Source: a virus. Taken from it: a DNA stretch of 27,467 nucleotides. Location of the stretch: the IMG/VR virus record IMGVR_UViG_3300021961_000495, positions 1 to 27,467 of that record, one strand, 5' to 3'. A model generated the notes under the pieces. It saw nothing but the letters and a program-made list of their open reading frames with translations. It made no database searches and had not been told where the DNA came from. This document shows positions 5,199 to 25,012 of the stretch, piece after piece; the stretch's first letter is position 1, and each line of letters opens with the position of its first letter. The position numbers and the translations under genes are program-made.

Positions 5199-8100
5199 TT
5201 ATTTAGTACCCTTTAATTCATTCAATTCTGCACGAAGTTCGGTAACTTCGCCTCTGAGTTCCTTGATTGCTTCAATGAGAAGTGGAACTAGTTTTTCATA
5301 CTTAACTGTTAGGTGATCTTCACTTGCTGGGGCTGGACATACAGCCTCAGGAAGAACTTTTTGGACCTCTTGAGCAGAAACACCAGAATGTCTCGTTTCT
5401 GTATTAAATCCATACTTAGAAGCTTCTTCATTAAATGAATATGTAAATCCACTAAGTTGAGATACTTTATCTAATGCATTTTGGATTGGTTCAATATCTT
5501 TCTTAAGACGAATATCCGAAGCAAAAGCGGTGATATCACCACTTACGAATAAATTATTTCCAGATGGGTTATAATAAATTCCAGCATCTGTATAAAGATT
5601 TTCATATGCTGCAGTTCCGTTATTTGAATTAACAAAGGTCAGATAATGATTTGCATTTGTTGCAATAGATGTAGTTCTAATCGTATTTGCATTACTAACC
5701 GCTCCATTGAATGTACCATAGAAATTATCTGCGGTAATATGTCTAGCAGTGAAATCACCGTTTGAGTTAGCCTGAACAACATAACTTACGTTCGTCTTTA
5801 CATTACTACTTGACTGAATATCAATAGTTCTTGCAGCAGAGTTGTTGAAACTGGAACCAGAAGTAAAGTAAAGTGGAGATGCAACTGATAGTCCATACTG
5901 TAGATTTCCATTGAATTGTCCAGAAGCAGTAATAACATTACCACTGAAGCTACCACCACTTCTTGTAACAACACTTGCACCCGTTGTATCAGTTGATGAA
6001 GTGTTAAGACCGTCAAGTAAATCTGCGTTTAGATTTGTGACCTTGGTAGTTGAAGTTACTGTTAAAGGTGCAGTTCCTGTTGCAACTGTAGAAACATATC
6101 TTTGTGCAGTAGAAACACCAGATAGATTTTGTTGTGTACCATTAACATGGGTAACAAAACCAATGTTTGCATATAGTCCATTGTTTGCAACAAGAGAAGT
6201 ATTAGCTCTTAGATGAGTAAATGTTCCAGCAACACCAGTGATACAAGTAACGACACCGACATTAATAAATGCAGTGAGAGGATCTGCAGCAGAAGTTCCA
6301 CGAATTGTTCTTGCAGTTATGTTTGTAATAATACCAGTGTTTACATAAGCAGTTGGAGATCCAACCCAGTCAGTTATTCTTGCATTTGTTGTTGTACTAA
6401 TAGTACCTGTTAGATAGGTAATTCCTCCTCGGGTACTTGTAAAGTCAGTGATAACACCAGTATTAATGTGAGCAAGTGGAGTTGCAAACTTAGAAGTTGC
6501 TCTAATACCTTGGCTGAAGGTATCTGTAGCATTTACCGTTGTGTAAGTCAGATCTTCTCCAGAAATATTGGTTACAATTCCAATAGGAGAATATAGGGAT
6601 GCAATGGTTCCAATTCCAGTTACATCTAGGTAGGTCATGATACCTGCCTGAATGTAAGCAACATTGGCAATACTAATAGTTCCTACACCAATTGTATCTC
6701 CTTTAAATTCAGTTGCTGTTACAACACCAGTGGATGAAATGAAGTTACCAACCTTGAGGGTTCCGTCAAATGTACTAATTCCTGGATGTACGGAGTGGAG
6801 AGCACCGCCCAGTTTCAGAGTGGTGTTTGAACTCATTGTAACTGCAGCACCAGTTACCTCCATATTTGCAAATTGAGCTAAAGAATCTGCAAGTGGATGT
6901 TTAATGGTATAGTGTGAAGGTCCGATAGATTCTGGGGGAACAGATGCACCACCATTACCAACCATGTATAGTTGGTTATTAATAACAATGTTTTCGTATG
7001 TAACACCAGAGAATACCTGGTTAGAAGCAAATGTGACGGCACCACCAACATATAGATTCTTAACCTTTACAGTTCCATTAACTTCAAGAGCATCTGTCCA
7101 GTTGTAGATAGATGTGTTTGGACCGACAGCAATTTGATCCAAAGTTACGGACATTCTATTTTTATCTCTGGAGATGATTCCAAATCTTCTCCAATCACCA
7201 TCACTATAAACGTGTCCTAGGTGTCCTCCTGGGATACTAACACCACCATCAATAGAGTAACCTGGATCTGGGTTTGCGAGGAATGTTACATCTCCAGACT
7301 TCTTAGGCTCTGGTGGGAATGACGAAATACCAACTGTTAATAGTTTTGGCTGGGATGCAAGACCTTTGATGTATAGGTCTCTCGTTTCTAATCCATTCTC
7401 AGAGGTGTTTGTAACCTTCTCAGAGAAGTTTACAGGACCATAGAACTGTGAAGTCTGGTTATTGTTTTCACCACCTTCAACGGTGATTCTTTCCTTAACA
7501 ACCAAGTCATCAAAAGTTCCACTATTTTTAGCAGCAGCCTCTGTTTGTGCATCATCACCGAAATAAGTAACAATAGGAGCTTCAATTACCTCTTCTTCAC
7601 CAGTTGCACCTTTAATCTTAGTTGCACCAGAGAAGAATTCTCCTCTGTCGTTCATACCAGTATAAACAACAGTACCACCATCCTGTTCTCTAGCTTGAGA
7701 TACAAGAATTTCATCATCACTTAGAACTCTATCTTGTTTTAGTGGTAAACCTGTTGAGTAGTTACCAGGACCGAAACCAAGATACTCAAACGTGTGACCA
7801 GATGCACGAAGAATTGAGTGTCTGCGAATTTCCATTGGCAGAACACGGATTTTCTTGATGGAAGTTCCTGATTCTGCATCAACTTTTGGTGTAGAGAATT
7901 GTCCTCTACTTACTGTAATGTTTGATCCCACTGGAGTCGCGGATACTCTTACAATCTCTGTTGAAAGGAGTAAGTAATCTCCCTTAGAAATTCCATTGGT
8001 ACTTGTTAGAGTAATTGACGTATCTGCCTTTGTTGCTGGCGCAGCAGTTGTTGTAGTTACACCTGCCCAAATGTATTGACCTCTTCCGCCAAGATTTTCC

Positions 8101-11100
8101 TCACCAAAACCTAATGCTCTACCATTTGCAGAATAACCAAATTTGTGGAGTGTAATTCCAGAAGCATTAAATGTTTGTGTTTCGGTACTTACTCCAGCAG
8201 AGAATACAAAAGTAGAGACACCGACTACTTCACTTACGAAGAATTTCTGACTGAAATAGGTGTTTCCAGTTCCTACTAATTGGAAACTATTTCCAGGAAC
8301 AAGACCATGAGATCCATTTACAACTACGGTTGAAATTCCTGAAGGATTGTCATATGTTACGCTTGTAACTCCTACTCCTTTTGAAGCTAAGAAAGCGATT
8401 GGGAATCTTTCATCATTTCTCGTTAAGTAAGTTGCACCAATACCAAGAGTGTTTAGAATGGAAATACTCTTTGAAGATGGAACTGCAACAACTTTGAAAA
8501 TTCCATTATACTTAGGATCTGCAAATCCAGAAAGTTCTAAAGTATCACCTACGTTATTGGATGTTGCGGTTACTGTTACAACAGCGAAATCACTTGGAGT
8601 TGAAGCGTTACCAGCAGAAATTTGCATGGTATTTCCAATTCCATAGGCACAACCACCATCAACAATTTCAACAGATGTAATAGTATTAGATGTTCCTACG
8701 ACTGCCTTGACAGTCGCTAGTCTTCCTGTAATAGATGCATTAAGTAACTCGGTGGAGTACATCGTACTTACGATGCCTGCAGAGTTGTTATAATCAGCAC
8801 CAGGATTGGTTATTGTTAACCCCGTAATGCGGTTTAGGTTGTGTTCTACATTGGTGTAGAGAGTTATCGTTGTATTTCCTGTACCAGTAATAATGGCACC
8901 AGTAATAGCATAACCAATTCTATTGTTATTTGCAAAAATGTTAAAAGCTTCTCTTGTGATAGAGTTTCTCTTGTCATTAGTATTGACAGATCCTAAAGGA
9001 GATAGTTTAGCGTGAGTAATTGAAGGATTAGGATCGGAATTATAGTTATCTCTATCTTGTTGTGGATAAAGGTTTCTAATATCCTGATTAAATTTCTTAT
9101 AACTTAGACCATATCCAACATTAGAATTTGGAGTAATACTTCCAGATAGTACAGTTAATAGATAGATACCATCTTGTCCATCAGCACCAGGAATGTGCTC
9201 TTTGATGGTGGTATTTCTATAGATGAATAATGTATCTTTATACTTTTCTCTCTGTAAGGTTGGTAAAGATTCAATTTGTAACTGTGTTGATCTCTGGTTT
9301 GTCTGACTTAAGAAAGTCCCTGGATCCGAAGATAATCCAACATAAGTAAATTCTTTTGAATTATTTACGGATGCAACTTCAAAAAGACCATTATATGGGA
9401 TATCACTATTTGCAGTTAGATTGTTTGAACTTATTATATTAGTAATTCTTACTAAATCACCAGTAATTAGATTATGTGGTAGTTCTGTTTTAATTGTAGC
9501 AGTTCCAGACAAATAAGAAGCACCGACGATTACTCTTGGGTTTCTTAATTGCGTTGGATCTTCAACAGAAGCACTAATAAACGAAGCAGATCCGACACCA
9601 ACATTTTTGGATTCTTGTAGAATAAATCCATCCGAAGGTGGTCTTGCATTTGTAAATTCTTTAGGAACTACATAACGAACTTTATAAATCCTATCTTCAA
9701 GACCCCTATTATCAAGTTGTCTCTGTAAGAAAGTTGCACCAGTAGACTCTCCTAGGATTGATGTTCCAATTCCTACAATACCATCGTAAATTGTGTTGTA
9801 GAATGTTGCTTGAGAACCCAATACATACCACTGTCTCTCAGTAGTATCATATTGAATTGGGTGTCCTGGATCGCCGGGAACTTTATCTGCAACTGTACTT
9901 AGAACTTGTAAGATTCCACCATTGTTTGAAATTCCAGTTACGTTGTTTCCAGCGTTTGCATCATTTAGTGTTGCAGATAATTTGATTTGGTTTGGATTTA
10001 ATCCCGTTGTGAGTGCATAGTATACCTTATTGTTCTCAATGTTTGATGGCATTTCGCCATTATCAGTATAAAGACGAATTTTTTCACCATTGAAGAGTTG
10101 GTGATTTTCGGTTAGTGTAATAATATCACTTGAAACACTGTTAATACCAGCCTGTCTTCCTGCATAATATGTTTTCTTAGCAGATGTTCCAATTCCACTA
10201 GGAACTTGCATCAAGATTGGAGATCTGAATGTACTTTGTTGATTTCCCAGAATAACGGTTAAGTATAGTTCTTCACCTTCTTTTGCACCAACTCTGTAGG
10301 AATCAATTTGAGATGGTGGTGCAATATCAATACTGTTATATCCAGACAACCATAATTTAGATGTTTGAGCCGCAGATACAATCTTTGTGGCATCTAAAGG
10401 CAACCAACTGACAGCAGAGGTTCTTGCGTTTGGTTCTCTTGGTGGAATAATGTGTGTAATATATCCTACATCGTCTCTATCAAATGATGTTGATCTAAAT
10501 CCACTTGCCTCAAGTGCGATTGCACCAAAGTTAGAGTTGGAGTTCGTAATTGACTGGTCTCCACCAGATTCACAAACAAAGTGTTTCGCATATCCAATAG
10601 CAAAGATAGAAACGCACTGAATAATGGAGTCATTACTTGCCTTCATGTGTACGTTTTCATATCCAGGCTTGTAAATTGCCCTGGAATTTGTGTGAAGGGG
10701 TTGTTGATCTTGAGATACTGTTAGATTGTCATTGTAAATTCCAGTTTCTTCGTCATAAATGATAAATGCATTATCATCTTTTTGTAGAGAAATACCAGTA
10801 AACTGAGCAGTCAACATGGATTTAAATCCAGTTGCCTTACTTCCATCAGCATGTAATCCATTTAATCCATAAACGGATCTCAATGTACAAGAGAATACGT
10901 ATGGTGATGCTGAAGATACTGAGTCCGATTCTACAAGAACATTTGAGTTTACAAAGTCTGCGAATCCTGGCAGAGGATCTGTTGGTACTTCTGGAGCAGT
11001 AAAGGTGAAGTTGGTTTCATCAATAACATCTGTAACCAGGAAGGATCCATTATATGAAGTTATATTTGTAGTAATACCACTAATTAATACCGGAGTGTCT

Positions 11101-12053
11101 TTGAATAACCCGTGAGTCGCTTCGGTGGTTACTGTAATTGTTTGAGTTGGAATTACTCCATCTCCAGACTTGATAGAGCTAATACCAATGGTATCAGCAC
11201 GAAGATCACCAACAATTCTGTATTCATCAATACTTGGCTCAAAGTCTGTACCTGATGCTGCTGGGTAGTTTGCCAAACCTCTACCAGAAGTATCACCATA
11301 AGCATGAGTAATCTTATAGTAATACATTTCAAGATCTGTTAGATCTGTGATATCAGATCCCAATTCTACCAAGTTTACACCATCGGCATACTCAAAACAT
11401 GTTAGTTTGTGGTGAGAGAAGTTAGGAGCTACTTTTGCACCACTTTGGTCTTTATATGCAGCTCTCTGGGGATCAGCGTCAAAGAATGAGAACGCAGTAA
11501 AGTAACAAGTACCCGTTACACGGAAGATTGCTGAGTTTGGTATTGAAGTATTGTTTGGATCTGGAACATATAGTGGACGAATCTTAGTTTTTCTAAGATC
11601 TAAACCAACAATAGAAGTACCTCTAGGTAGAATTACACCACCGTTGATGGAGTTAAATTTTACTAAATCATTATCTTCGTCAAAAATGTCAAAGTTGGAA
11701 AATTCACTAAACTCAGTAACAGTTGCCCCAGAAGTTGTCCAACCACCATTTACAAGTCTCTTGAATACGGAAGCTCCAGAAATATTTTGAATAGAAAATC
11801 CGGGTCTATTATCAATATAGTGTGTACCAGGATATACAAGAATTGTTGTTCTATCAATCTTATCGTTGTTCTTACCTACCTGATAGGAAAACCTTGCCGA
11901 CTCAAGGAGGGCTCTTTGAATGGTTCTAAAAGGTCTTGTTAGGGAATTACCTCTATTTTCAAAACTATCAGTTGCGTCAAAATCTGATGGGTTGACATAA
12001 AGGATATTACCTTCTGCATTCTTTAGGAAATTCTCTAATCTACTTAGGGGCAT
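5199..12053 (-). CDS. Giant tail-fibre protein with C-terminal S74 self-cleaving chaperone
   Basis: This is a 2284-aa structural protein. The N-terminus (GNILYVNPSDFDATD, PFRTIQRALLESARF, ILVYPGTHY) resembles the first turns of a parallel beta-helix of the pectate-lyase/DUF1565 type. The middle is Ser/Thr/Gly/Asn-rich beta repeats. Around residues 1770-1970 a motif like A-x-I/V-N-T-G-I/V-I-T recurs, and NADLLDG then GGSFSGNVIT follow, as in other phage fibre shafts. The C-terminus has the Peptidase_S74 intramolecular chaperone: SDIRLKKDI with S2179-D2180 as the expected cleavage site and K2184 as the dyad partner, then GVSAQEVQKVLPEAV and a terminal coiled coil (ELRGEVTELRAELNEL). Chaperone release would remove about 105 residues after trimerisation. 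Confidence 0.9.
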   Translation of the reverse strand: MPLSRLENFLKNAEGNILYVNPSDFDATDSFENRGNSLTRPFRTIQRALLESARFSYQVGKNNDKIDRTTILVYPGTHYIDNRPGFSIQNISGASVFKRLVNGGWTTSGATVTEFSEFSNFDIFDEDNDLVKFNSINGGVILPRGTSIVGLDLRKTKIRPLYVPDPNNTSIPNSAIFRVTGTCYFTAFSFFDADPQRAAYKDQSGAKVAPNFSHHKLTCFEYADGVNLVELGSDITDLTDLEMYYYKITHAYGDTSGRGLANYPAASGTDFEPSIDEYRIVGDLRADTIGISSIKSGDGVIPTQTITVTTEATHGLFKDTPVLISGITTNITSYNGSFLVTDVIDETNFTFTAPEVPTDPLPGFADFVNSNVLVESDSVSSASPYVFSCTLRSVYGLNGLHADGSKATGFKSMLTAQFTGISLQKDDNAFIIYDEETGIYNDNLTVSQDQQPLHTNSRAIYKPGYENVHMKASNDSIIQCVSIFAIGYAKHFVCESGGDQSITNSNSNFGAIALEASGFRSTSFDRDDVGYITHIIPPREPNARTSAVSWLPLDATKIVSAAQTSKLWLSGYNSIDIAPPSQIDSYRVGAKEGEELYLTVILGNQQSTFRSPILMQVPSGIGTSAKKTYYAGRQAGINSVSSDIITLTENHQLFNGEKIRLYTDNGEMPSNIENNKVYYALTTGLNPNQIKLSATLNDANAGNNVTGISNNGGILQVLSTVADKVPGDPGHPIQYDTTERQWYVLGSQATFYNTIYDGIVGIGTSILGESTGATFLQRQLDNRGLEDRIYKVRYVVPKEFTNARPPSDGFILQESKNVGVGSASFISASVEDPTQLRNPRVIVGASYLSGTATIKTELPHNLITGDLVRITNIISSNNLTANSDIPYNGLFEVASVNNSKEFTYVGLSSDPGTFLSQTNQRSTQLQIESLPTLQREKYKDTLFIYRNTTIKEHIPGADGQDGIYLLTVLSGSITPNSNVGYGLSYKKFNQDIRNLYPQQDRDNYNSDPNPSITHAKLSPLGSVNTNDKRNSITREAFNIFANNNRIGYAITGAIITGTGNTTITLYTNVEHNLNRITGLTITNPGADYNNSAGIVSTMYSTELLNASITGRLATVKAVVGTSNTITSVEIVDGGCAYGIGNTMQISAGNASTPSDFAVVTVTATSNNVGDTLELSGFADPKYNGIFKVVAVPSSKSISILNTLGIGATYLTRNDERFPIAFLASKGVGVTSVTYDNPSGISTVVVNGSHGLVPGNSFQLVGTGNTYFSQKFFVSEVVGVSTFVFSAGVSTETQTFNASGITLHKFGYSANGRALGFGEENLGGRGQYIWAGVTTTTAAPATKADTSITLTSTNGISKGDYLLLSTEIVRVSATPVGSNITVSRGQFSTPKVDAESGTSIKKIRVLPMEIRRHSILRASGHTFEYLGFGPGNYSTGLPLKQDRVLSDDEILVSQAREQDGGTVVYTGMNDRGEFFSGATKIKGATGEEEVIEAPIVTYFGDDAQTEAAAKNSGTFDDLVVKERITVEGGENNNQTSQFYGPVNFSEKVTNTSENGLETRDLYIKGLASQPKLLTVGISSFPPEPKKSGDVTFLANPDPGYSIDGGVSIPGGHLGHVYSDGDWRRFGIISRDKNRMSVTLDQIAVGPNTSIYNWTDALEVNGTVKVKNLYVGGAVTFASNQVFSGVTYENIVINNQLYMVGNGGASVPPESIGPSHYTIKHPLADSLAQFANMEVTGAAVTMSSNTTLKLGGALHSVHPGISTFDGTLKVGNFISSTGVVTATEFKGDTIGVGTISIANVAYIQAGIMTYLDVTGIGTIASLYSPIGIVTNISGEDLTYTTVNATDTFSQGIRATSKFATPLAHINTGVITDFTSTRGGITYLTGTISTTTNARITDWVGSPTAYVNTGIITNITARTIRGTSAADPLTAFINVGVVTCITGVAGTFTHLRANTSLVANNGLYANIGFVTHVNGTQQNLSGVSTAQRYVSTVATGTAPLTVTSTTKVTNLNADLLDGLNTSSTDTTGASVVTRSGGSFSGNVITASGQFNGNLQYGLSVASPLYFTSGSSFNNSAARTIDIQSSSNVKTNVSYVVQANSNGDFTARHITADNFYGTFNGAVSNANTIRTTSIATNANHYLTFVNSNNGTAAYENLYTDAGIYYNPSGNNLFVSGDITAFASDIRLKKDIEPIQNALDKVSQLSGFTYSFNEEASKYGFNTETRHSGVSAQEVQKVLPEAVCPAPASEDHLTVKYEKLVPLLIEAIKELRGEVTELRAELNELKGTK
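5200..5206 (-). promoter_or_regulatory. Late promoter (CTAAATA) overlapping the fibre stop codon
   Basis: CTAAATA on the minus strand contains the TAA that ends the 2284-aa fibre gene (reading ACT AAA TAA) and lies 32 bases upstream of the small coiled-coil gene. Confidence 0.6.
6140..6740 (-). repeat. Degenerate repeats in the fibre shaft
   Basis: About seven imperfect copies encode the motif aa-x-N-x-G-(I/V)-(V/I)-T, for example AYIQAGIMTYL, AHINTGVITDF, AYVNTGIITNI, AFINVGVVTCI and YANIGFVTHV. On the plus strand they show as recurring ACACCAGTRTT-like segments near 6148, 6246, 6327, 6447, 6570, 6634 and 6717. Spacing is irregular (64-123 bases), so these are fibrous beta repeats and not exact tandem DNA repeats. 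Confidence 0.65.
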
Positions 12054-12183: not shown

Positions 12184-12795
12184 TTACCACTTTACTTCTT
12201 TCCAGGCAAGTCTTTCCTTTAATTCCTTTTGAAAAACCATAAGATAACGATGTTTACGAGAGCGATCCCTCCACTCACCGTCAATGCCGCTAACACTACC
12301 TCTAGAATGTTTGGTTCCATCTGCGTAATAGAAATCTTTTTTAGGGTCAGTTAACCCATAGTACTTGAAATTACAAGCTCTGTATATAGTTCCAGTGTGG
12401 TGACTAGCGTCAGCATAACTAAGAATAGCACGAACTGGGGCATCTTTTCTAAACCTCTTAATACATTTACTAACAAACCACGAGGTAATATTGTATTCTT
12501 CTTTCTGAACTTCTGGATCCACGCATAGACGAGAGAGTTCAAATAAACCCTCTTGTTCATCTCTTTGTAGACCAAATGCACCTACGGCTATTTCTGGGAC
12601 TGGGAGACCAGTAAAAACGCAAGCAGCAAGGCACTTGCCAATTCTAAGAGGACATTCCCACTCAGTACGCTTAAAAAGTCCATAATTATGCCCAGATTTA
12701 AAATCTTTGGACTCATCTTTTAGATAGTGATGAGTATAAAGAAGATCTTTGATTTCTTCCTTACTAACTCTATCTATGTAAAAATCACTCTTCAC
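12184..12795 (-). CDS. Mom-like GNAT-fold DNA-modification protein
   Basis: The 203-aa protein resembles phage Mu Mom and its relatives. It has an N-terminal HHYLKDESKDFKSGHNYGLF region, a LAACVFTGLPVPE strand, ELSRLCVDP (86-94), and the signature SYADASHHTGTIYRACNFKY (126-145) followed by YYADG and a basic RDRSRKHRYLMVF tail. Mu Mom converts adenine in phage DNA to N6-methylcarbamoyl-adenine and so blocks many restriction enzymes. A related role here is inferred from similarity. The start is a GTG at 12795, directly after an in-frame TAA. It is the last gene of the cassette and a strong terminator follows. Confidence 0.75.
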   Translation of the reverse strand: MKSDFYIDRVSKEEIKDLLYTHHYLKDESKDFKSGHNYGLFKRTEWECPLRIGKCLAACVFTGLPVPEIAVGAFGLQRDEQEGLFELSRLCVDPEVQKEEYNITSWFVSKCIKRFRKDAPVRAILSYADASHHTGTIYRACNFKYYGLTDPKKDFYYADGTKHSRGSVSGIDGEWRDRSRKHRYLMVFQKELKERLAWKEVKW

Positions 12796-14315: not shown

Positions 14316-15968
14316 TTAACTGGTCGCAACTCCTGTAGTGTTAGATGAGAATTTGTTGTTCTTATTTGGTTTTTCTGGTTCGTATGAAGTGAAATCCGTA
14401 TTATTTAAAGTAGTTATATCCGATTCTAGCGTAGATTTTTCAACTTCTGCATAAACTCTACCTTGCAACATAGAGAATGCCTCTGTTTCAAGTTTATTTC
14501 TCAACCTTCTCAAAACTTTTGCTTTGTTAAGGGTATCATTTACAATAGTAGTATTTGTTGAAATAATTGAATCTCTACTAGACTCTGCGGAAGTGATTGC
14601 TGTATCTAAACCACCACAACCTGTTAATGATGGATTTGTTGGACTGGTTGTGGCATATCCTATAGAATATTTTGCAGGTGTACTTGTACCTGTCGTTCCC
14701 ACTCCAACAGATGAAGTTATTGTTAGTGATTGTCCTTCAGTTGCATATGAAAATGTACTTGCAATTGCAACACCAGAAGTATTAAAAGTATATGTATAGT
14801 ATCCAGGCCATGAAGTAGTTCCACTGTAATAAGTTACATATCCATTACCGCAAGATGGTTCTGGATCTTCAATAACTTCTCTCCACTGGAAAGGTCCAGA
14901 AGAACTTCCATTATTAACCAATACGGCTGTGTGACCCAATCCAATCTTTCCGGTATCCATTATACCTACGGTGACTGGATCTACTGGATTATTGCTGTAA
15001 TCAAAAACATCTATGTTTGATTGTGTTGTTCTAATTACTGTAAAAAATGCATCTACGGCTGTTGCATTTATAGATTGATCTAAGAGTAACGATGGGTATT
15101 CGGATTTTATTCCGACTGTAAAATTGGTAGTTGCAGAACCAATAGCAGCAGAACTTACAATTAATGCTGGTCCACTTGTACTAGATGATATGAAAGTTCC
15201 TGTACCATAATCCCAAACTTCAATACTGTAACTTCCGGTAGTAAATCCAACTACTGTTGTTCCTGGGTTTAAGACTCCTGCCTTTTCTATAGAATCTCCT
15301 GTGTTGATTCCAACGGTAGATCCGATTCCAGTGTGAACAATGATTGTGGATCCAAAAGAGACAGTTCCCCCAAACTCAACAGAGTTTATGGTCAAAGTAC
15401 TTACACCAAATCCAATAACATCAGGCAGGTTTGCTGAACTGTAAAGAGAAGGATTGTCAATACTATCGGTGATAGTATCTCCTATTTGGATGCTGTTTGT
15501 AGCTCCTACGCTAGTTACTGCTAAGTTTGTTGCGCCATAACTGGCACTTCCAGTAAACTCTATAACAATATTGGAACCATAATCTTGGTTTTGTGGTCTT
15601 CTGTAATACTTTACGCCATATTTGTTATAATTTATCTGTACTGCAGAATTCTTTTGTGCTGTATAAGTTACACTTGTATATACACTACCTACACCAACAG
15701 TCCAAGTATTGGAAGCAGTTTGTACCCAAATCAGATCACTTTTACAGCCTGCAGAAATTCTATTATCATATGCAGTTTTTACCGAACTTATAGCAACATT
15801 AATCTCATCTACCAGAGGTAGAATTGACTTGTCCATATTTTCAACTATTGAATCGTATTGATCTATACGGACATCATAAAGTTTGAGTTGATCTTTGATC
15901 ATCTCAACTTCTGCTTTTTTCTGTTCCAGTTGCGTCTTTAAGTCGGCAACAAAATTAGTTGATATCAT
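14316..15968 (-). CDS. Tail/baseplate structural protein, 550 aa
   Basis: The first 75 residues form a coiled coil (DLKTQLEQKKAEVEMIKDQL, VRIDQYDSIVENMDKSILPL). The middle is Thr/Ser/Gly-rich beta sequence with repeated segments such as IQIGDTITDS, VGINTGDSIEKAG and GFGVSTLTINS. A helical C-terminal part follows (DTAITSAESSRDSIIST, LNKAKVLRRLRNKLETEAF). It ends the late tail operon, and its ATG overlaps the stop of the previous gene by 14 bases. I recall proteins of this make-up in cyanophage tail operons but cannot assign a T4 counterpart; a fibre or baseplate-attached role is likely. Confidence 0.7.
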   Translation of the reverse strand: MISTNFVADLKTQLEQKKAEVEMIKDQLKLYDVRIDQYDSIVENMDKSILPLVDEINVAISSVKTAYDNRISAGCKSDLIWVQTASNTWTVGVGSVYTSVTYTAQKNSAVQINYNKYGVKYYRRPQNQDYGSNIVIEFTGSASYGATNLAVTSVGATNSIQIGDTITDSIDNPSLYSSANLPDVIGFGVSTLTINSVEFGGTVSFGSTIIVHTGIGSTVGINTGDSIEKAGVLNPGTTVVGFTTGSYSIEVWDYGTGTFISSSTSGPALIVSSAAIGSATTNFTVGIKSEYPSLLLDQSINATAVDAFFTVIRTTQSNIDVFDYSNNPVDPVTVGIMDTGKIGLGHTAVLVNNGSSSGPFQWREVIEDPEPSCGNGYVTYYSGTTSWPGYYTYTFNTSGVAIASTFSYATEGQSLTITSSVGVGTTGTSTPAKYSIGYATTSPTNPSLTGCGGLDTAITSAESSRDSIISTNTTIVNDTLNKAKVLRRLRNKLETEAFSMLQGRVYAEVEKSTLESDITTLNNTDFTSYEPEKPNKNNKFSSNTTGVATS

Positions 15969-17349: not shown

Positions 17350-19674
17350 TTACACACATTGTACAACGTTTACAATTCTATCGGTTCCAATTCCAGGAGT
17401 ACCAGGATCAACAACGTATTGTGGTACGTATTGTAACACTGGATATAGTAAAGCTCCTTGACCTGTATTTGTATTTATTGTGATTGATGGAGACGATGTA
17501 AATTGAGAATTGCAGGAACTAAATCCTGAAGAAACTCCAATGATTGATCCGTTGGGAGTAATTACTATTTTAAAGATACATCCTCCAGCTGTGATAGAAT
17601 CTCCAGAGGTATAACCGTATCCTGGTTTTTCTACTACAAAATTCGTTATGATTCCAACTGGATTTGTTGAAATTCCTATGGAGGTACTTCCAATTCCAGT
17701 AATAGTGGTTGTTCCATCTCCTGTACCGGAAGTTGTCCCAATTCCAATCGTGGTTAAATTCGTTTGACAATAACCAGAACCAGCACTAGTAATATAAATT
17801 GATTCTATCTCACCCTTATCATTAATTTTAGATTTAGCTAAAGCTCCAGATCCATAATTACTATTGTCTTTGATTTCTACTGTAGGATTCTTAGTATAAT
17901 TTGCACCAGGATTCGTAACGGAAATAGTTAATATTGAACCATCCGTAGGGGAAACAACTGCTGTTCCTGAGGCCCCATATCCATCCCCATAAATTATGAC
18001 TTCTGGTGGAATACAATAATACCATTGGGATCCGATAGGCGTACTTGATACCCCATCTTGATCCGTTGGGTTTAGTGCCTCTTCTCTACAATCAGCAAAT
18101 AGGGTCTCTTGTCCACCATACATTGACAGTAAAGATGCCCATTCATCAACCTCGGCCCCAGCACCACCAAGTAAATCAAAGTTATTCAAAGTCTTTGCCC
18201 AATCATCAGAACTTGGGAATTTAACTCCCTCAAATGGATCCCAAAAACTCTTTGGTTCGCACTTTAGATTATCGCAAGATAAAAATCCAAGTAGTTGATT
18301 GAGCATATCAAATGCACCAGTAATATAATCTGCAATTTGACCAATACCTCCAGTTAACCAATCAATTCCAGATAAAACAGAATCCAATGCATCTGTTAGT
18401 AGATCTGATGCCTTACCTATTATAGATGCGATCGTTTCTTCTACAGCACAAACGGGAATATTTGGAGATTTGCCGATCAAAGCATCAAGTAATCCAATAA
18501 TGAAATCTAATAAAGGACCAAATAACTTTTCAAAGATACAAAAAATGATATTGAGAATATTTTTTGCAGCTTCAGACAGTTGTAACCACTGTGGAAGAGG
18601 AGTTGTTACAGCAAATGCTCTGAATAAACAACCTATCAGTTTAGTAATGTTATCTCTAACTCCGTTCAATATAAACTTGAATATTGAAGTTAATAATCTT
18701 GCAACTCTTCTTATATTATCCTTTACATTTACTACAACATTTCTGATAGGATCTATAAATCCATAGATTGTTGATTCTAGACCATTTATAAATTTGACAA
18801 AGCTCTGTAAAGTAGCTTGCATTTCTGCAATAAAGTTATTCTCGCACCCATTTTCCGATTGTACTGGACCTACAGCTTCCGAACTAAACTGTTTTAAAAA
18901 TCCTGCATTTGCAAGACTTCCCGAGAATAATTTGTCGTATGAGATGTCGGGGTTATTGAATATGGATCCAGCAGCAGAATTGGTATCTGAAAAAATAGAT
19001 GAATAATTTGGAGAATTTATATCTGCACCAATTCCTAGATTTAAATCGGTATTAAACGTATAAGGAGATGCAAAATCTTTATTTGCATCATATGCACCCG
19101 AGAAATCTATTTGATTATTCTGGGTGAATGAAACGGCTGCTTGATCCGAACCAGCATTTGTTACGGTTGGCGGTTTTTGTACAGTACCTTTATCTGGCGG
19201 CTTCATTCTAGTTGAAGTCGCAGAAAGATTTCCCTGCATCCCAGTAAAAGGTTTAAACTGAGAACTCTTTTCTTTTTCTAAAAGTTCTGGAGTAATTAAA
19301 TTTTGTACAGAATCATTTCTATAGAAACAAGAAACGACTACTGGTTGTTGTGCTTCTTCTCCATCCAAAAAGAATCCTAATACAGACTCTCCTCCCATAA
19401 GATTTGGAGTTTTTCCAAATCCACCTTGACCAGGAGATCCTTCTGCACCAGAGGTTAAAATATGTGCCCAAGGAAGATCATCATCGGGCAACACATTTCC
19501 ATCAAAAGTATGATATCCGATAATCCTTACTTTACATCTAAATGCCCAACTACCTTCTGTGTCAACTCTTGCCTTTTCATTTTTCCAAGACTCTGGGCTA
19601 GCTACCTGGCCAACCCACCAGATAAAGCCGTCTTTTCCCGCATAATTAGATTTTAATAAGGATTCTTCTATCAT
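17350..19674 (-). CDS. Baseplate hub protein, gp5-like, no visible lysozyme domain
   Basis: The 774-aa protein starts with an OB-fold region like T4 gp5 (about 1-130: GFIWWVGQVASPE, CKVRIIGYHTFDGNVLPDDD, GESVLGFFLDGEEAQQPVVV). Residues about 280-470 are hydrophobic and amphipathic helices. Residues about 560-750 carry strand repeats of the type NPGANYTKNPTVEI and SAGSGYC. T4 gp5 is about 575 aa with an internal lysozyme; no T4-lysozyme-type catalytic block is visible here. The ATG at 19674 lies six bases after the cp12 stop. It should form the hub with gp27, and the following 187-aa gene may supply the needle. Confidence 0.78.
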   Translation of the reverse strand: MIEESLLKSNYAGKDGFIWWVGQVASPESWKNEKARVDTEGSWAFRCKVRIIGYHTFDGNVLPDDDLPWAHILTSGAEGSPGQGGFGKTPNLMGGESVLGFFLDGEEAQQPVVVSCFYRNDSVQNLITPELLEKEKSSQFKPFTGMQGNLSATSTRMKPPDKGTVQKPPTVTNAGSDQAAVSFTQNNQIDFSGAYDANKDFASPYTFNTDLNLGIGADINSPNYSSIFSDTNSAAGSIFNNPDISYDKLFSGSLANAGFLKQFSSEAVGPVQSENGCENNFIAEMQATLQSFVKFINGLESTIYGFIDPIRNVVVNVKDNIRRVARLLTSIFKFILNGVRDNITKLIGCLFRAFAVTTPLPQWLQLSEAAKNILNIIFCIFEKLFGPLLDFIIGLLDALIGKSPNIPVCAVEETIASIIGKASDLLTDALDSVLSGIDWLTGGIGQIADYITGAFDMLNQLLGFLSCDNLKCEPKSFWDPFEGVKFPSSDDWAKTLNNFDLLGGAGAEVDEWASLLSMYGGQETLFADCREEALNPTDQDGVSSTPIGSQWYYCIPPEVIIYGDGYGASGTAVVSPTDGSILTISVTNPGANYTKNPTVEIKDNSNYGSGALAKSKINDKGEIESIYITSAGSGYCQTNLTTIGIGTTSGTGDGTTTITGIGSTSIGISTNPVGIITNFVVEKPGYGYTSGDSITAGGCIFKIVITPNGSIIGVSSGFSSCNSQFTSSPSITINTNTGQGALLYPVLQYVPQYVVDPGTPGIGTDRIVNVVQCV

Positions 19675-21179: not shown

Positions 21180-23246
21180 TTACGTTGATGATAAGTTTGT
21201 GAGAAGCATTGTCTTGAATAAACTATTTAATACTTGAGCCTCGGACGGTCCAGGCATAACAACTACTGGATCACCTCCCCCAGAACCACCAGGAGAAATT
21301 ACCATCGGAGATTTTGAGGAACTGGAAGATATAGGAATAATAGTTGTCGTCTCTCTTTGCGTATTGTATGTTGGATACTGTTGCAGTTGTTGCATCTGTT
21401 GTGGTGCAACAACTTGTTGTTGGGATGGAGATACTTGGGAAGCCTGGGATTGAGAAGGTTTAGCCTTTACTAAAGAAATTGCATATTGGAGGATATCACT
21501 TCCATGAGCACCCTGAACTCTTTTGCCAGCAACATTTTGCATTGATCCACCGGCAATTCTCACTGCATTACTATCTCCAATGACTTCTGCTCCAGAATAT
21601 TTTTGTCGTAATGCATTTGCACTGTCCATGGTTAAGTGAAGTGGATCAGATGAACTGTAAGCTCCCTTTTCAACTGAAACTCCCATTGCTGATGCTGCTC
21701 TAACTGAAGCTTCATGTGCTGCTGAACTTAATCCCTTATTCGGTGGAACCAAGATTGGAGTATATCCTTTATTTCTCAGTTCTTGTAAGATCTTTTTGGT
21801 ATCTATTTCAACCTTTGCGGGATCTTGATAATCATTAGTACCTGTTGCAACTAATACTGGTTGTCCTTGTCCTTGAGTAGTGGATCTTAATGTTTGTGCG
21901 TCTGGAGTCTTTTTAGAACCTTTCATTCCATGACCAACAAAAGCGTTAGTGCCTTGAATTCTAGCAGCATATCCATATCCATGTTTGGACCAAGTAACAT
22001 CTCCAACAGGAACTGGTAATCTCAATCCAGCTTCTCCAGCTATATCCAAACCACCCCAAGAACCACCACCACTGCGATTTGCATGAGCATTTTGTTCCCT
22101 TAAGATATAATCTCTCAAAGTTTTATCATCAGGAGCTTTACCTGGCATAACGTCAATTCCTGCATTAGTAAATCTAAAATATTTTTTCCTTGCAATAAAT
22201 CCTTTTGCAATCTTGAATGCCGCTTCTCTTGCAGCTACCTTTCCTTGTTCTGTTTTTTTGTTTACCCACACATCTCCTACTGGGTCATATAGTTCTGTTG
22301 GTCCTATATGGAAATGTGGTCCAGTTGATTTTCCTGTTGATCCTTGAATAAAAGTTCCTTCACCATCCAAAGTAACATCTTCAGATCCCGGTCCAGTTGG
22401 AGCATTAGGATCACTTCCTGGACCGTAATTTTCTCCTTCAGATGTTCCTGGACCACTACTAGTTATAGTTCCAGAACCAAAGGATGCTCGTTCAAATTTT
22501 GTTACGACAGATTCAAATTGATCCAGTACATCCGAGAATCCCATTTGAGGACTTACTTGAGCTGCTTTTATTTTTTGTCTCTGTTGTTGTTCTCGCAATT
22601 GTTCACTACCACTTATCGCAGAAACAACTTTTTCTCCACCCTCATATGCACGATCACCCAACCAACCACCAGCCATGCCTCCAAGGGCACTACCTACCAT
22701 AAAACCTACCCCAGGAATAGGAATCAATGATTGTCCAATAACCCCACCAAGTAAACTTCCCGCCAGGGCCCCACCAGCACCCGCAGCAGCTTTACCTACA
22801 GACTCTCCTTCTGCAAGACCAGTTGCAAAATCCAGTCCAGCGAATGCCGCGTTTGCAATTCCTAGTGCTCTAACTCCTCCAAATCTTATCTTTGGTCCTT
22901 GGGGAATTGGTCTTCCTGCAGGAGCTTTTGGTCCTACTTTTCTATTTCTACCAAAGAAGTCGCCAACAAAGGATGCAGCATCAAGTGCTCCACTAGCTAA
23001 TGAACTGAGTAAGTTTCCAGGTCTTCCAAAATTACTAGCAACGTTGATACCTTGAAGTTTTTTAAGTTTCTTCTTACTGAATTGAATAGATTTTAGTCTT
23101 TGTGTTTCTATTCCAATAAATTGAACTAAATCTTGGTACGATTTCTGGGTTGATCCCATACTCGCAGAAGATCTATTTCTAATGCCAGCAATTTTAGTAG
23201 CTGCTCTTACTAGTGGGAATACTGAGTCCGATGCTGTTATTGCCAT
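21180..23246 (-). CDS. Tail/hub protein with M23-like and SGNH-like motifs in rotated order
   Basis: The 688-aa protein has a Gly/Ala-rich hydrophobic region (about 125-200, GGALAGSLLGGVIGQSLIPI) like a tape or membrane-active segment. Then come GSTGKSTGPHFHIG (H311, H313), the end motif of M23 peptidases, followed by GGLDIAG (D401) and GYGYAARI..FVGHG (H439), the front part of M23. Next are GTND (469-472), DPLHLT (D534, H537) and GDSNAVRI (S559) with GAHG (579-582), which are SGNH hydrolase blocks in the order III, V, I, II. Both domains therefore appear circularly permuted. The usual first zinc His of M23 is Trp397 here. A Gln/Ser/Pro-rich tail follows. Likely roles are peptidoglycan cleavage and carbohydrate-ester hydrolysis during entry. 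Confidence 0.7.
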   Translation of the reverse strand: MAITASDSVFPLVRAATKIAGIRNRSSASMGSTQKSYQDLVQFIGIETQRLKSIQFSKKKLKKLQGINVASNFGRPGNLLSSLASGALDAASFVGDFFGRNRKVGPKAPAGRPIPQGPKIRFGGVRALGIANAAFAGLDFATGLAEGESVGKAAAGAGGALAGSLLGGVIGQSLIPIPGVGFMVGSALGGMAGGWLGDRAYEGGEKVVSAISGSEQLREQQQRQKIKAAQVSPQMGFSDVLDQFESVVTKFERASFGSGTITSSGPGTSEGENYGPGSDPNAPTGPGSEDVTLDGEGTFIQGSTGKSTGPHFHIGPTELYDPVGDVWVNKKTEQGKVAAREAAFKIAKGFIARKKYFRFTNAGIDVMPGKAPDDKTLRDYILREQNAHANRSGGGSWGGLDIAGEAGLRLPVPVGDVTWSKHGYGYAARIQGTNAFVGHGMKGSKKTPDAQTLRSTTQGQGQPVLVATGTNDYQDPAKVEIDTKKILQELRNKGYTPILVPPNKGLSSAAHEASVRAASAMGVSVEKGAYSSSDPLHLTMDSANALRQKYSGAEVIGDSNAVRIAGGSMQNVAGKRVQGAHGSDILQYAISLVKAKPSQSQASQVSPSQQQVVAPQQMQQLQQYPTYNTQRETTTIIPISSSSSKSPMVISPGGSGGGDPVVVMPGPSEAQVLNSLFKTMLLTNLSST

Positions 23247-25012
23247 TATCCGTCAACTATATTATAGACCATTTTTGAATATAATGTAAGGAAGTTGTCT
23301 TCATTCGTTGATGGAATGAAGGGAACCGTGCTGGTCGGACTGGGAGAACCACCACCAACAGACTGAGTTCCTTTTTCTCGTTTTGGTCCAGCACCACTCA
23401 TTGGCACAATATTCACCTCTGAAGTTGAAATAGTTGCTGGAGGTTGTGCAACTTGTTTTGCTGTTTCCTGTTGCGTTTTGGCTGCAGAAGGAGCAGGTGA
23501 TACTTGAGCTTGTGGGGTAACTGCCGCAACTTGAGTGGTTGTTGATGGTTGAGAAGGAGCTCTTGTTCCCTGAGCGGTTAATCTTTGACCGTAAACTTTT
23601 TTAAGACCCTCATATTTTTTAACTGGTTGTCCATAAAAACTTCCACCTGATGCGGTTGGAAACGATGCCCATTCTGGGGAAAGAGCCGAAGTTATTCTTG
23701 GACTCAATCCTTCTTTCTGCAATAATATTTCCAGTTCATTCTCATTTCTTACAGTTATGCCAGCCTGATTGAGTCTCTTAATAATAAGTCTAACTGCACC
23801 TGCATCTTGTCTATCTGGAGTCATTGCTCCACCACCAACACTAGCCCATGTGCCTGGCATGAATTGATAACGACCAAAAGCAGCACTAGCATATCCACCA
23901 CTTCTTATGACCTTATCTGGGTGTTTGCTTAAGTCGTTAGTTTGACTTCCCCCAAAATGAGTATTATATCCTTGATTTTGATATTTTGAAGTTCCTTCAG
24001 CATACGCAATTGTATCCAAAAGAGATCTAGTTGAAGCACCAGCCGGACCTTGTGCTCCCGCACCCATTTCTGTTCCAGCAGTTCCTGGTTGTTGTTGATT
24101 CGTAGATTCTGGTGTTGGTGGTGGTGCTGTGTCTGTGGATGAAGGTTGAACTTGTGGTCTCTGCTCTTGACCCCTTCTTGACATGGAATCTATTGCTGCA
24201 GAAAATCTGGAAAGAATATAACTAAATCTATTCATTAGATCTCCAGATAGTCCCATTCCGGTATCCATAGATCCCTCATCCGCTCTTGCAGCACCAGAAA
24301 GAGCACTCACCCCTGCAGCAACACCTGCTCCAGCAAGAGCGGATGTTGCGAGGGCCATCCCTGGGCGTCTTCTCATCATCCTTGTTAGACCTCTAGGCGC
24401 AGTCTTTTTCAGAGGGCCACCGGGAACTTTGAGATCCAAACTTAATCCTGGACCCCCACTAGCAGATGCTGAAGGTAAAGATGCAAGTTGATTTATAATT
24501 CTTACAATTTGTTGTCTTATTATAGTTGCAACTTTGAACGTTTCGTCAAATACTCCTCTTAATGCCTCTAGGTTTGCACCCAGTTGTTTAATATTTGCTG
24601 GATTTCCCAAAAACTGGATATATCCAAGTGCTTTATCATATAAACCTAAGAAAGAATTTAGGAGTTTATTTGGAGTAGCAGTATCTAATTTTTGAGTTTT
24701 TTGGGCATATCTTTCTTGTATTGCCTTTACTCTTTCCCCAACAATTTGATTAACAGTTTGATTTATTGATTGTACTCTATTTTCAACATTATTTAAAATG
24801 TTTGTTGATAATGTTTGGATGATTGATCCAAGGTCGGGTGGTCTTGGAGCTACAGCAGGTCCAGCTGCCAATCCCGATACACTACTGGCGGCTGAATTGA
24901 AAACAGAAGATCCCAATGGAGATCCACCAGAAATAAAATTCTGCGTTTTTTCTGGTGTAGTCGTCCTCTCCGGAGATATAACTCCTGGATTAAGTGGGGA
25001 ACTAATAGCCAC
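23246..25012 (-). CDS. Hub/tape-like protein with GH104 muramidase-like domain
   Basis: In this 588-aa protein, residues about 60-180 are helical with long polar heptads (INQTVNQIVGERVKAIQERY), and a hydrophobic Ala/Gly segment lies near 220-241. Residues about 328-480 match the lambda R (GH104) transglycosylase fold: LLDTIAYAEGTS (E339 as catalytic acid), NQGYNTHFGG, GRYQFMPGTW (370-379), RQDAGAVRLI, then WASFPTASGGSFYG (448-461) as in the lambda ending. These enzymes cut the glycan strand. A Gln/Pro/Ala-rich linker leads to the C-terminus. GTG start at 25012, overlapping the gp51-like gene by 11 bases. It probably cuts peptidoglycan at injection. Confidence 0.8.
   Translation of the reverse strand: MAISSPLNPGVISPERTTTPEKTQNFISGGSPLGSSVFNSAASSVSGLAAGPAVAPRPPDLGSIIQTLSTNILNNVENRVQSINQTVNQIVGERVKAIQERYAQKTQKLDTATPNKLLNSFLGLYDKALGYIQFLGNPANIKQLGANLEALRGVFDETFKVATIIRQQIVRIINQLASLPSASASGGPGLSLDLKVPGGPLKKTAPRGLTRMMRRRPGMALATSALAGAGVAAGVSALSGAARADEGSMDTGMGLSGDLMNRFSYILSRFSAAIDSMSRRGQEQRPQVQPSSTDTAPPPTPESTNQQQPGTAGTEMGAGAQGPAGASTRSLLDTIAYAEGTSKYQNQGYNTHFGGSQTNDLSKHPDKVIRSGGYASAAFGRYQFMPGTWASVGGGAMTPDRQDAGAVRLIIKRLNQAGITVRNENELEILLQKEGLSPRITSALSPEWASFPTASGGSFYGQPVKKYEGLKKVYGQRLTAQGTRAPSQPSTTTQVAAVTPQAQVSPAPSAAKTQQETAKQVAQPPATISTSEVNIVPMSGAGPKREKGTQSVGGGSPSPTSTVPFIPSTNEDNFLTLYSKMVYNIVDG

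Follow-up and report, generated by a model that had tools for sequence, protein, structure and literature searches.

Two adjacent circularly permuted hydrolase domains, of the M23 and SGNH types, predicted in a virion protein of a T4-like cyanophage

Introduction

The M23 peptidases (PF01551) include LytM, lysostaphin, ShyA and the M23 enzymes of phage tails, and a review of these peptidases mentions no permutation (PMC9662197). For the SGNH proteins, permuted members are known, namely AlgX/AlgJ (AlgX family) and PatB1 (DHHW family), in which the catalytic residues follow the order H-S-G-N, corresponding to blocks V-I-II-III (PMC9487903). The catalytic domain of OatA, a peptidoglycan O-acetyltransferase, has a true SGNH fold (PMC5697884).

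In this study we analysed a viral DNA stretch of 27,467 nucleotides (IMG/VR record IMGVR_UViG_3300021961_000495, positions 1 to 27,467; hereafter the window), which encodes a 688-aa protein on the minus strand (21180..23246). The initial annotation, made from the sequence without database searches, proposed that M23 and SGNH domains lie side by side in this protein and that both look circularly permuted. After comparison of sequence profiles, structure models and relatives, we consider it probable that this is a virion protein associated with the tape measure or hub of a T4-like cyanophage, with two circularly permuted cell-envelope hydrolases.

Results

Source virus and organization of the 688-aa protein

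Judging from gene content, the window virus is a T4-like cyanophage, because its homologue of T4 gp26 (PF12322; 25190-25918) is 74% identical to gp26 of Synechococcus phage S-SCSM2R, and because two photosystem reaction-centre genes are present in the sister genome L002 (171 kb). The 688-aa ORF sits between gp26 and a gene for the gp5-type hub/lysozyme (phrog_1922; 17350-19674), a position equivalent to that occupied in cultured cyanophages by two genes for varied wall enzymes. The gene just upstream (23246..25012, minus strand) is predicted to be the second wall-hydrolase carrier of the tail cluster, with matches to the phrog_90 endolysin (3e-21) and to lysozyme-type PHROGs. This neighbour also exchanges enzyme cassettes: it carries a SleB-type Hydrolase_2 domain in L001 (1073-2980) versus Phage_lysozyme2 in L002 (1145-2980), the remainder being closely similar.

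The N-terminal region (residues 1-285; 22392..23246, minus strand) and the C-terminal tail (residues 601-688; 21180..21446, minus strand) are common to the sister proteins, with 49-66% identity overall; by blastp this range holds for the N-terminal region in L001, L012, L028 and L030, and the tail shows 49-60%. The N-terminal part weakly matches the tape measure phrog_794 (1e-5). Between these ends lie the predicted M23 domain (residues 295-442; 21921..22364, minus strand) and, back to back with it, the predicted SGNH domain (residues 464-600; 21447..21857, minus strand). All motifs listed in the initial annotation, H311, H313, W397, D401, H439, G469-T-N471-D, D534-P-L-H537-L-T, G557-D-S559-N and G579, were confirmed at the residues given. 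In the native order, no Pfam, NCBIfam or PHROG model recognizes either domain as a wall enzyme at a useful score. Profile searches with the swapped halves recovered M23 for one domain and SGNH for the other, whereas the native order recovered neither as a whole domain, which shows, at the level of profiles and together with the conservation described below, that both putative hydrolase domains are circularly permuted. The window protein was the only one found to combine both rotated types.

The permuted M23 domain

The rotated domain shares with the M23 peptidases the strand set and the motifs GxD, YxH(L/G) and G(I/x)xG...STGPHxH, and the site residues appear to agree by position in the fold; it differs in that the HxH half comes first and that a helical insertion is found at the joint. 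The half placed first (22299..22352, minus strand) consists of the strand FIQG and the motif GPHFHI, with H311 as the predicted catalytic residue and H313 as the predicted zinc ligand. It is followed by a helix-hairpin-helix insertion (residues 317-384; 22095..22298, minus strand), as seen in the secondary structure of the model, which links the HxH strand to the front half, running from GGLDIAG (D401) to FVGHG (H439) (21927..22055, minus strand) and assigned from alignment, model and conservation. Relative to ordinary M23s, the cut would thus fall after the 'AHL' strand (H439) and before the next 'GxxIG' strand.

The native protein gave no match to PF01551, against 79.9 bits for the sister protein L030 with a normal M23. 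A profile of 16 sequences of the rotated family (A9) was then compared, in both orders, with 177,635 PDB sequences. After un-rotation the top three were all M23 peptidases (E 0.13-0.5, each individually weak), each aligned from the Asp of GxD to HxH; in native order no M23 was found. By hhalign against normal M23s, the same profile aligned over 69 columns un-rotated versus 15 columns native. In native order, the M23 region matches phrog_11440 ('unknown function'), which contains gp009 of S-CAM3 (YP_009321272.1), and its HxH end gives a weak partial match (E 0.11) to a metallo-endopeptidase PHROG. The S-CAM3 protein carries the same rotated M23 and the same invariant histidines, but is longer than the window protein and has no SGNH after the rotated M23.

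A more distant group of rotated M23s (profile A13) was identified in internal proteins of the cyanobacterial podoviruses S-CBP1, DSL-LC07 and P60 and in the contig L026 (the set includes L038:3001-3372, L095:301-681 and L096:259-672). When un-rotated, this profile performed better than A9: its nine best PDB matches were all M23 (best E 0.0014), and by hhalign it aligned with normal M23s at E 6e-10 over 84 columns. The native A13 matched a sole M23, and this in two separate pieces, as is typical of a permutation; A13 and A9 match one another (94.6%). Of the four podovirus-type sequences, only the rotated M23 of L026 retains both HxxxD and HxH; in the other three, HxD stands in place of HxH, and HxxxD gives way to a His placed nine residues ahead of the Asp. 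In S-CBP1, DSL-LC07 and P60 the domain lies at the C-terminal end of internal virion or tape measure proteins. The un-rotated region of L026 weakly resembles Pfam Ntox37 (E 0.011), a possible hint that Ntox37 is M23-related. Scans of the genome contigs yielded no relatives.

Conservation was counted over 39 distinct rotated M23 domains from viral contigs of many samples and from the cultured phage S-CAM3. H311, H313, Q385, H388, D401 and H439 are invariant (39/39), and the HxH motif is preceded by STG. The HxxxD zinc motif is absent: D401 is always present, but the slot of its His, position 397, is taken by Q (19 domains), F (8), W (5), A (3) or P (2). Since W397 of the window is not conserved, the invariant H388 (22083..22085, minus strand), a residue missing from the initial annotation, is the likely replacement for the HxxxD histidine as the predicted zinc ligand. 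In the predicted model it lies in the last helix of the insertion, its distance to D401 varies from 10 residues in S-CAM3 to 13 in the window (ordinary M23s have the histidine of HxxxD), and a similarly placed His is found in the podovirus rotated M23s. The suggestion that the zinc site may be altered or completed elsewhere is thereby answered in part, with H388 available as the ligand.

The two domains were modelled separately, and the alignment for a joint model was discarded, its SGNH rows having been misplaced by MAFFT. The AF2 model of the M23 region (20 sequences) reached pLDDT 90.6 and pTM 0.88, with the strands FIQ and HFHI, the helix-hairpin-helix insertion, and then GLDIA, VTW, YAARIQ and AFVGHG, an order that on our reading of the model would be the M23 strand set begun at its fifth strand. 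Foldseek and VIA-align returned no M23 for this confident model; as both programs compare chains in sequence order, and re-alignment was confined to the candidates that Foldseek itself had listed, this outcome counts neither for nor against an M23 fold. The initial annotation had also considered VGDVTW (414-419) as a degenerate SGNH block I within the M23-like part. This candidate was rejected, because by alignment it sits in the M23 strand after GxD and because relatives devoid of any SGNH have VGPV, VEDV or TEGM there.

The permuted SGNH domain

All the SGNH catalytic blocks, I (GDS), II (G), III (GxN) and V (DxxH), are present in the second domain, in the order III-V-I-II instead of I-II-III-V: block III is VATGTND (N471; 21831..21854), block V DPLHLT (D534, H537; 21630..21647), block I GDSNAV (S559; 21561..21578) and block II GAHG (G579; 21501..21512), all on the minus strand. 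The same order was found in four further contigs, L027-L030, at 60-62% identity. DPLHLT is identical in these, and S559, N471, D534 and H537 are conserved between the window and all four; the glycine of block II is kept as the G of GSQT in L028/L030. Together with the 39/39 conservation of H311, H313, D401 and H439 among distinct M23 relatives and with the shuffling test below, this sets the motifs apart from chance.

An un-rotated profile built from three sequences matched the SpOatA catalytic domain in PDB (5UG1, E 5e-5; 5UFY, 1e-4) over 118 positions, spanning blocks I to III and beyond, whereas the native order matched only half (E 0.002-0.008 over 66 positions). In the alignment, 'IGDSVALR' of OatA stands under 'IGDSNAVR' and 'IATGVNN' under 'VATGTND'. 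Pfam Lipase_GDSL_2 became visible only after un-rotation, at 15.1 bits (E 0.034), under the curated cut-off. OatA is the closest solved relative by sequence after un-rotation, sharing G(T/V)N and IGDSxAxR with the window domain; it differs in its normal order, its attachment to a membrane acyltransferase and a block II without Gly. The cut would separate the helix that follows block II from the strand of block III. Designed PPR proteins matched by the SGNH profile in PDB, as well as a capsid fiber matched by L001, were set aside as repeat or chance matches.

It might be argued that this domain is some other Rossmann-like domain, in which GTND, DPLHLT and GDSN occur by coincidence. The model (three sequences) is indeed weak, with pLDDT 64 and its weakness exactly in the moved I-II half. 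E. coli TesA was listed over blocks III-V, the better part of this weak model (VIA-align, Z 6.2, 91-93 aligned, rmsd 4.4-5.4), tied in Z with unrelated Rossmann-like chains, the best structural matches being a mixture of Rossmann-like proteins, none with Z above 7; degenerate relatives without the motifs also exist. A coincidence is nevertheless quite improbable, given that only 4 of 200,000 shuffles of the domain held all three patterns, that the un-rotated profile matches OatA across blocks I to III and further at the E value above, and that L001/L002 have normal-order SGNH motifs in the same slot. We thus retain the SGNH assignment.

In the known permuted proteins AlgX/AlgJ and PatB1 the SGNH core likewise has a permuted block order, but this order is H-S-G-N with altered motifs; the window domain, with N-H-S-G (III-V-I-II) and the standard GDS, GTN and DxxH, does not show the order V-I-II-III of the AlgX and DHHW families, and its predicted cut differs from theirs.

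The rotated SGNH of L030 has matches in 52 phage records, nearly all of cyanophages; with the un-rotated SGNH of the window as query, tblastn found no match among phage records. A distant rotated SGNH without Ser, Asn and DxxH (GDK/GDQ and GTDQ/GSKD instead) was detected in S-SSM4 (L035:3001-3351) and ACG-2014d (L036:5001-5306), where it adjoins lytic enzymes.

Exchange of permuted and normal domains among sister proteins

The proteins of L027-L030 have the same N and C ends as the window protein, with a normal M23 followed by the rotated SGNH; in L028/L030 an ordinary M23 (PF01551) fills the slot of the rotated one. In L001/L002 the rotated M23 (76% in L001) precedes normal-order SGNH motifs, GDSIAKG, GAS, SGLANN and DNVH; here hhalign with the rotated SGNH covered blocks I-II only, at low probability, so the normal order is taken from the motifs. 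In L012 the rotated M23 stands without an SGNH. As each rotated domain stands in sister proteins beside the normal version of the other, comparison of these sequences indicates that the two rotations are independent and that the domains are exchangeable cassettes.

The window comes from a contig collection and is possibly a fragment, for which reason the swapped order could be thought to stem from misassembly or a gene-fusion artefact in this contig alone. This is hardly credible and is refuted by the independent occurrences: the rotated M23 is found in the 39 distinct domains of many samples, the cultured S-CAM3 included, and the rotated SGNH in four further contigs and, in degenerate form, in cultured phages.

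Discussion

The most likely role of the 688-aa protein is to open the host wall locally during infection through putative peptide cleavage and ester removal. A virion protein of the tape-measure/hub region would deliver both domains to the wall. In the M23 part, with the HxH end first and joined through the helical insertion to the HxxxD front, H388, D401 and H313 may be the zinc ligands and H311 and H439 the candidate catalytic residues, and the enzyme would cut peptidoglycan cross-links (wall peptides). In the SGNH part, S559-H537-D534 may form the triad, and N471 and G579 may belong to the oxyanion hole; this part would remove ester groups, such as O-acetyl on glycan or surface polysaccharide, that would otherwise block digestion of the wall or polysaccharide. 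Both domains are presumed active, and the two activities together might help the tail to pass the wall.

An alternative is that both domains are permuted folds that have lost catalysis and play a binding or structural role, as do non-catalytic LytM factors. The lack of the canonical HxxxD histidine, the HxD of the podovirus relatives and the SGNH relative of S-SSM4/ACG-2014d devoid of its catalytic residues agree with such a loss. We regard it as unlikely, since the four His and one Asp invariant in 39/39 domains are the make-up of an intact M23 site, the SGNH residues S, N, D and H are kept from the window to L027-L030, and intact normal M23s occupy the same slot in sister proteins. For active domains, as we prefer, the SGNH part could be an acetyltransferase, or have polysaccharide or lipid of the host surface as its substrate, instead of being a peptidoglycan esterase, given that the peptidoglycan O-acetyltransferase OatA (PMC5697884) was the one SGNH relative that reached significance among the PDB matches. 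This is rather doubtful, because no membrane acyltransferase that could be the donor-side partner is among the matches listed for the window, it is not obvious where an enzyme in the virion would find an acetyl donor, and the SGNH fold includes esterases too. An esterase thus remains our preferred assignment.

As to novelty, a permuted M23 was not found in the full-text literature searched, with most subscription journals lying outside its coverage. Within that literature the M23 rotation is unreported; for SGNH, rotation as such is known, though with a different cut. On balance we favour the view that the rotated M23s may constitute an undescribed class of permuted active enzymes, with the third zinc ligand moved to the insertion helix (H388), that the N-H-S-G order may be a second type of SGNH permutation, and that a single cyanophage tail-protein slot accommodates the permuted and the normal versions as interchangeable cassettes. 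Natural permutants of a wall peptidase fold that is very common would then be invisible to Pfam and NCBIfam and stand as 'unknown function' in PHROGs, implying that entire groups of phage wall enzymes escape annotation by profiles. The shift of the zinc ligand, and the pairing of permuted with normal forms at the same slot, offer natural material on permutation in relation to activity, folding and packing in the tail.

Three other genes of the window, all on the minus strand, may be mentioned. A 550-aa protein encoded between the fibre and baseplate genes (14316-15968) has no significant Pfam or PHROG match. The product of 12184-12795, within the tail gene cluster, resembles Mom-like DNA modification proteins (phrog_1384, 3e-29). 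The 2284-aa protein of 5199-12053, whose C-terminal domain is a self-cleaving chaperone of the S74 type (PF13884), is probably a large tail fibre.
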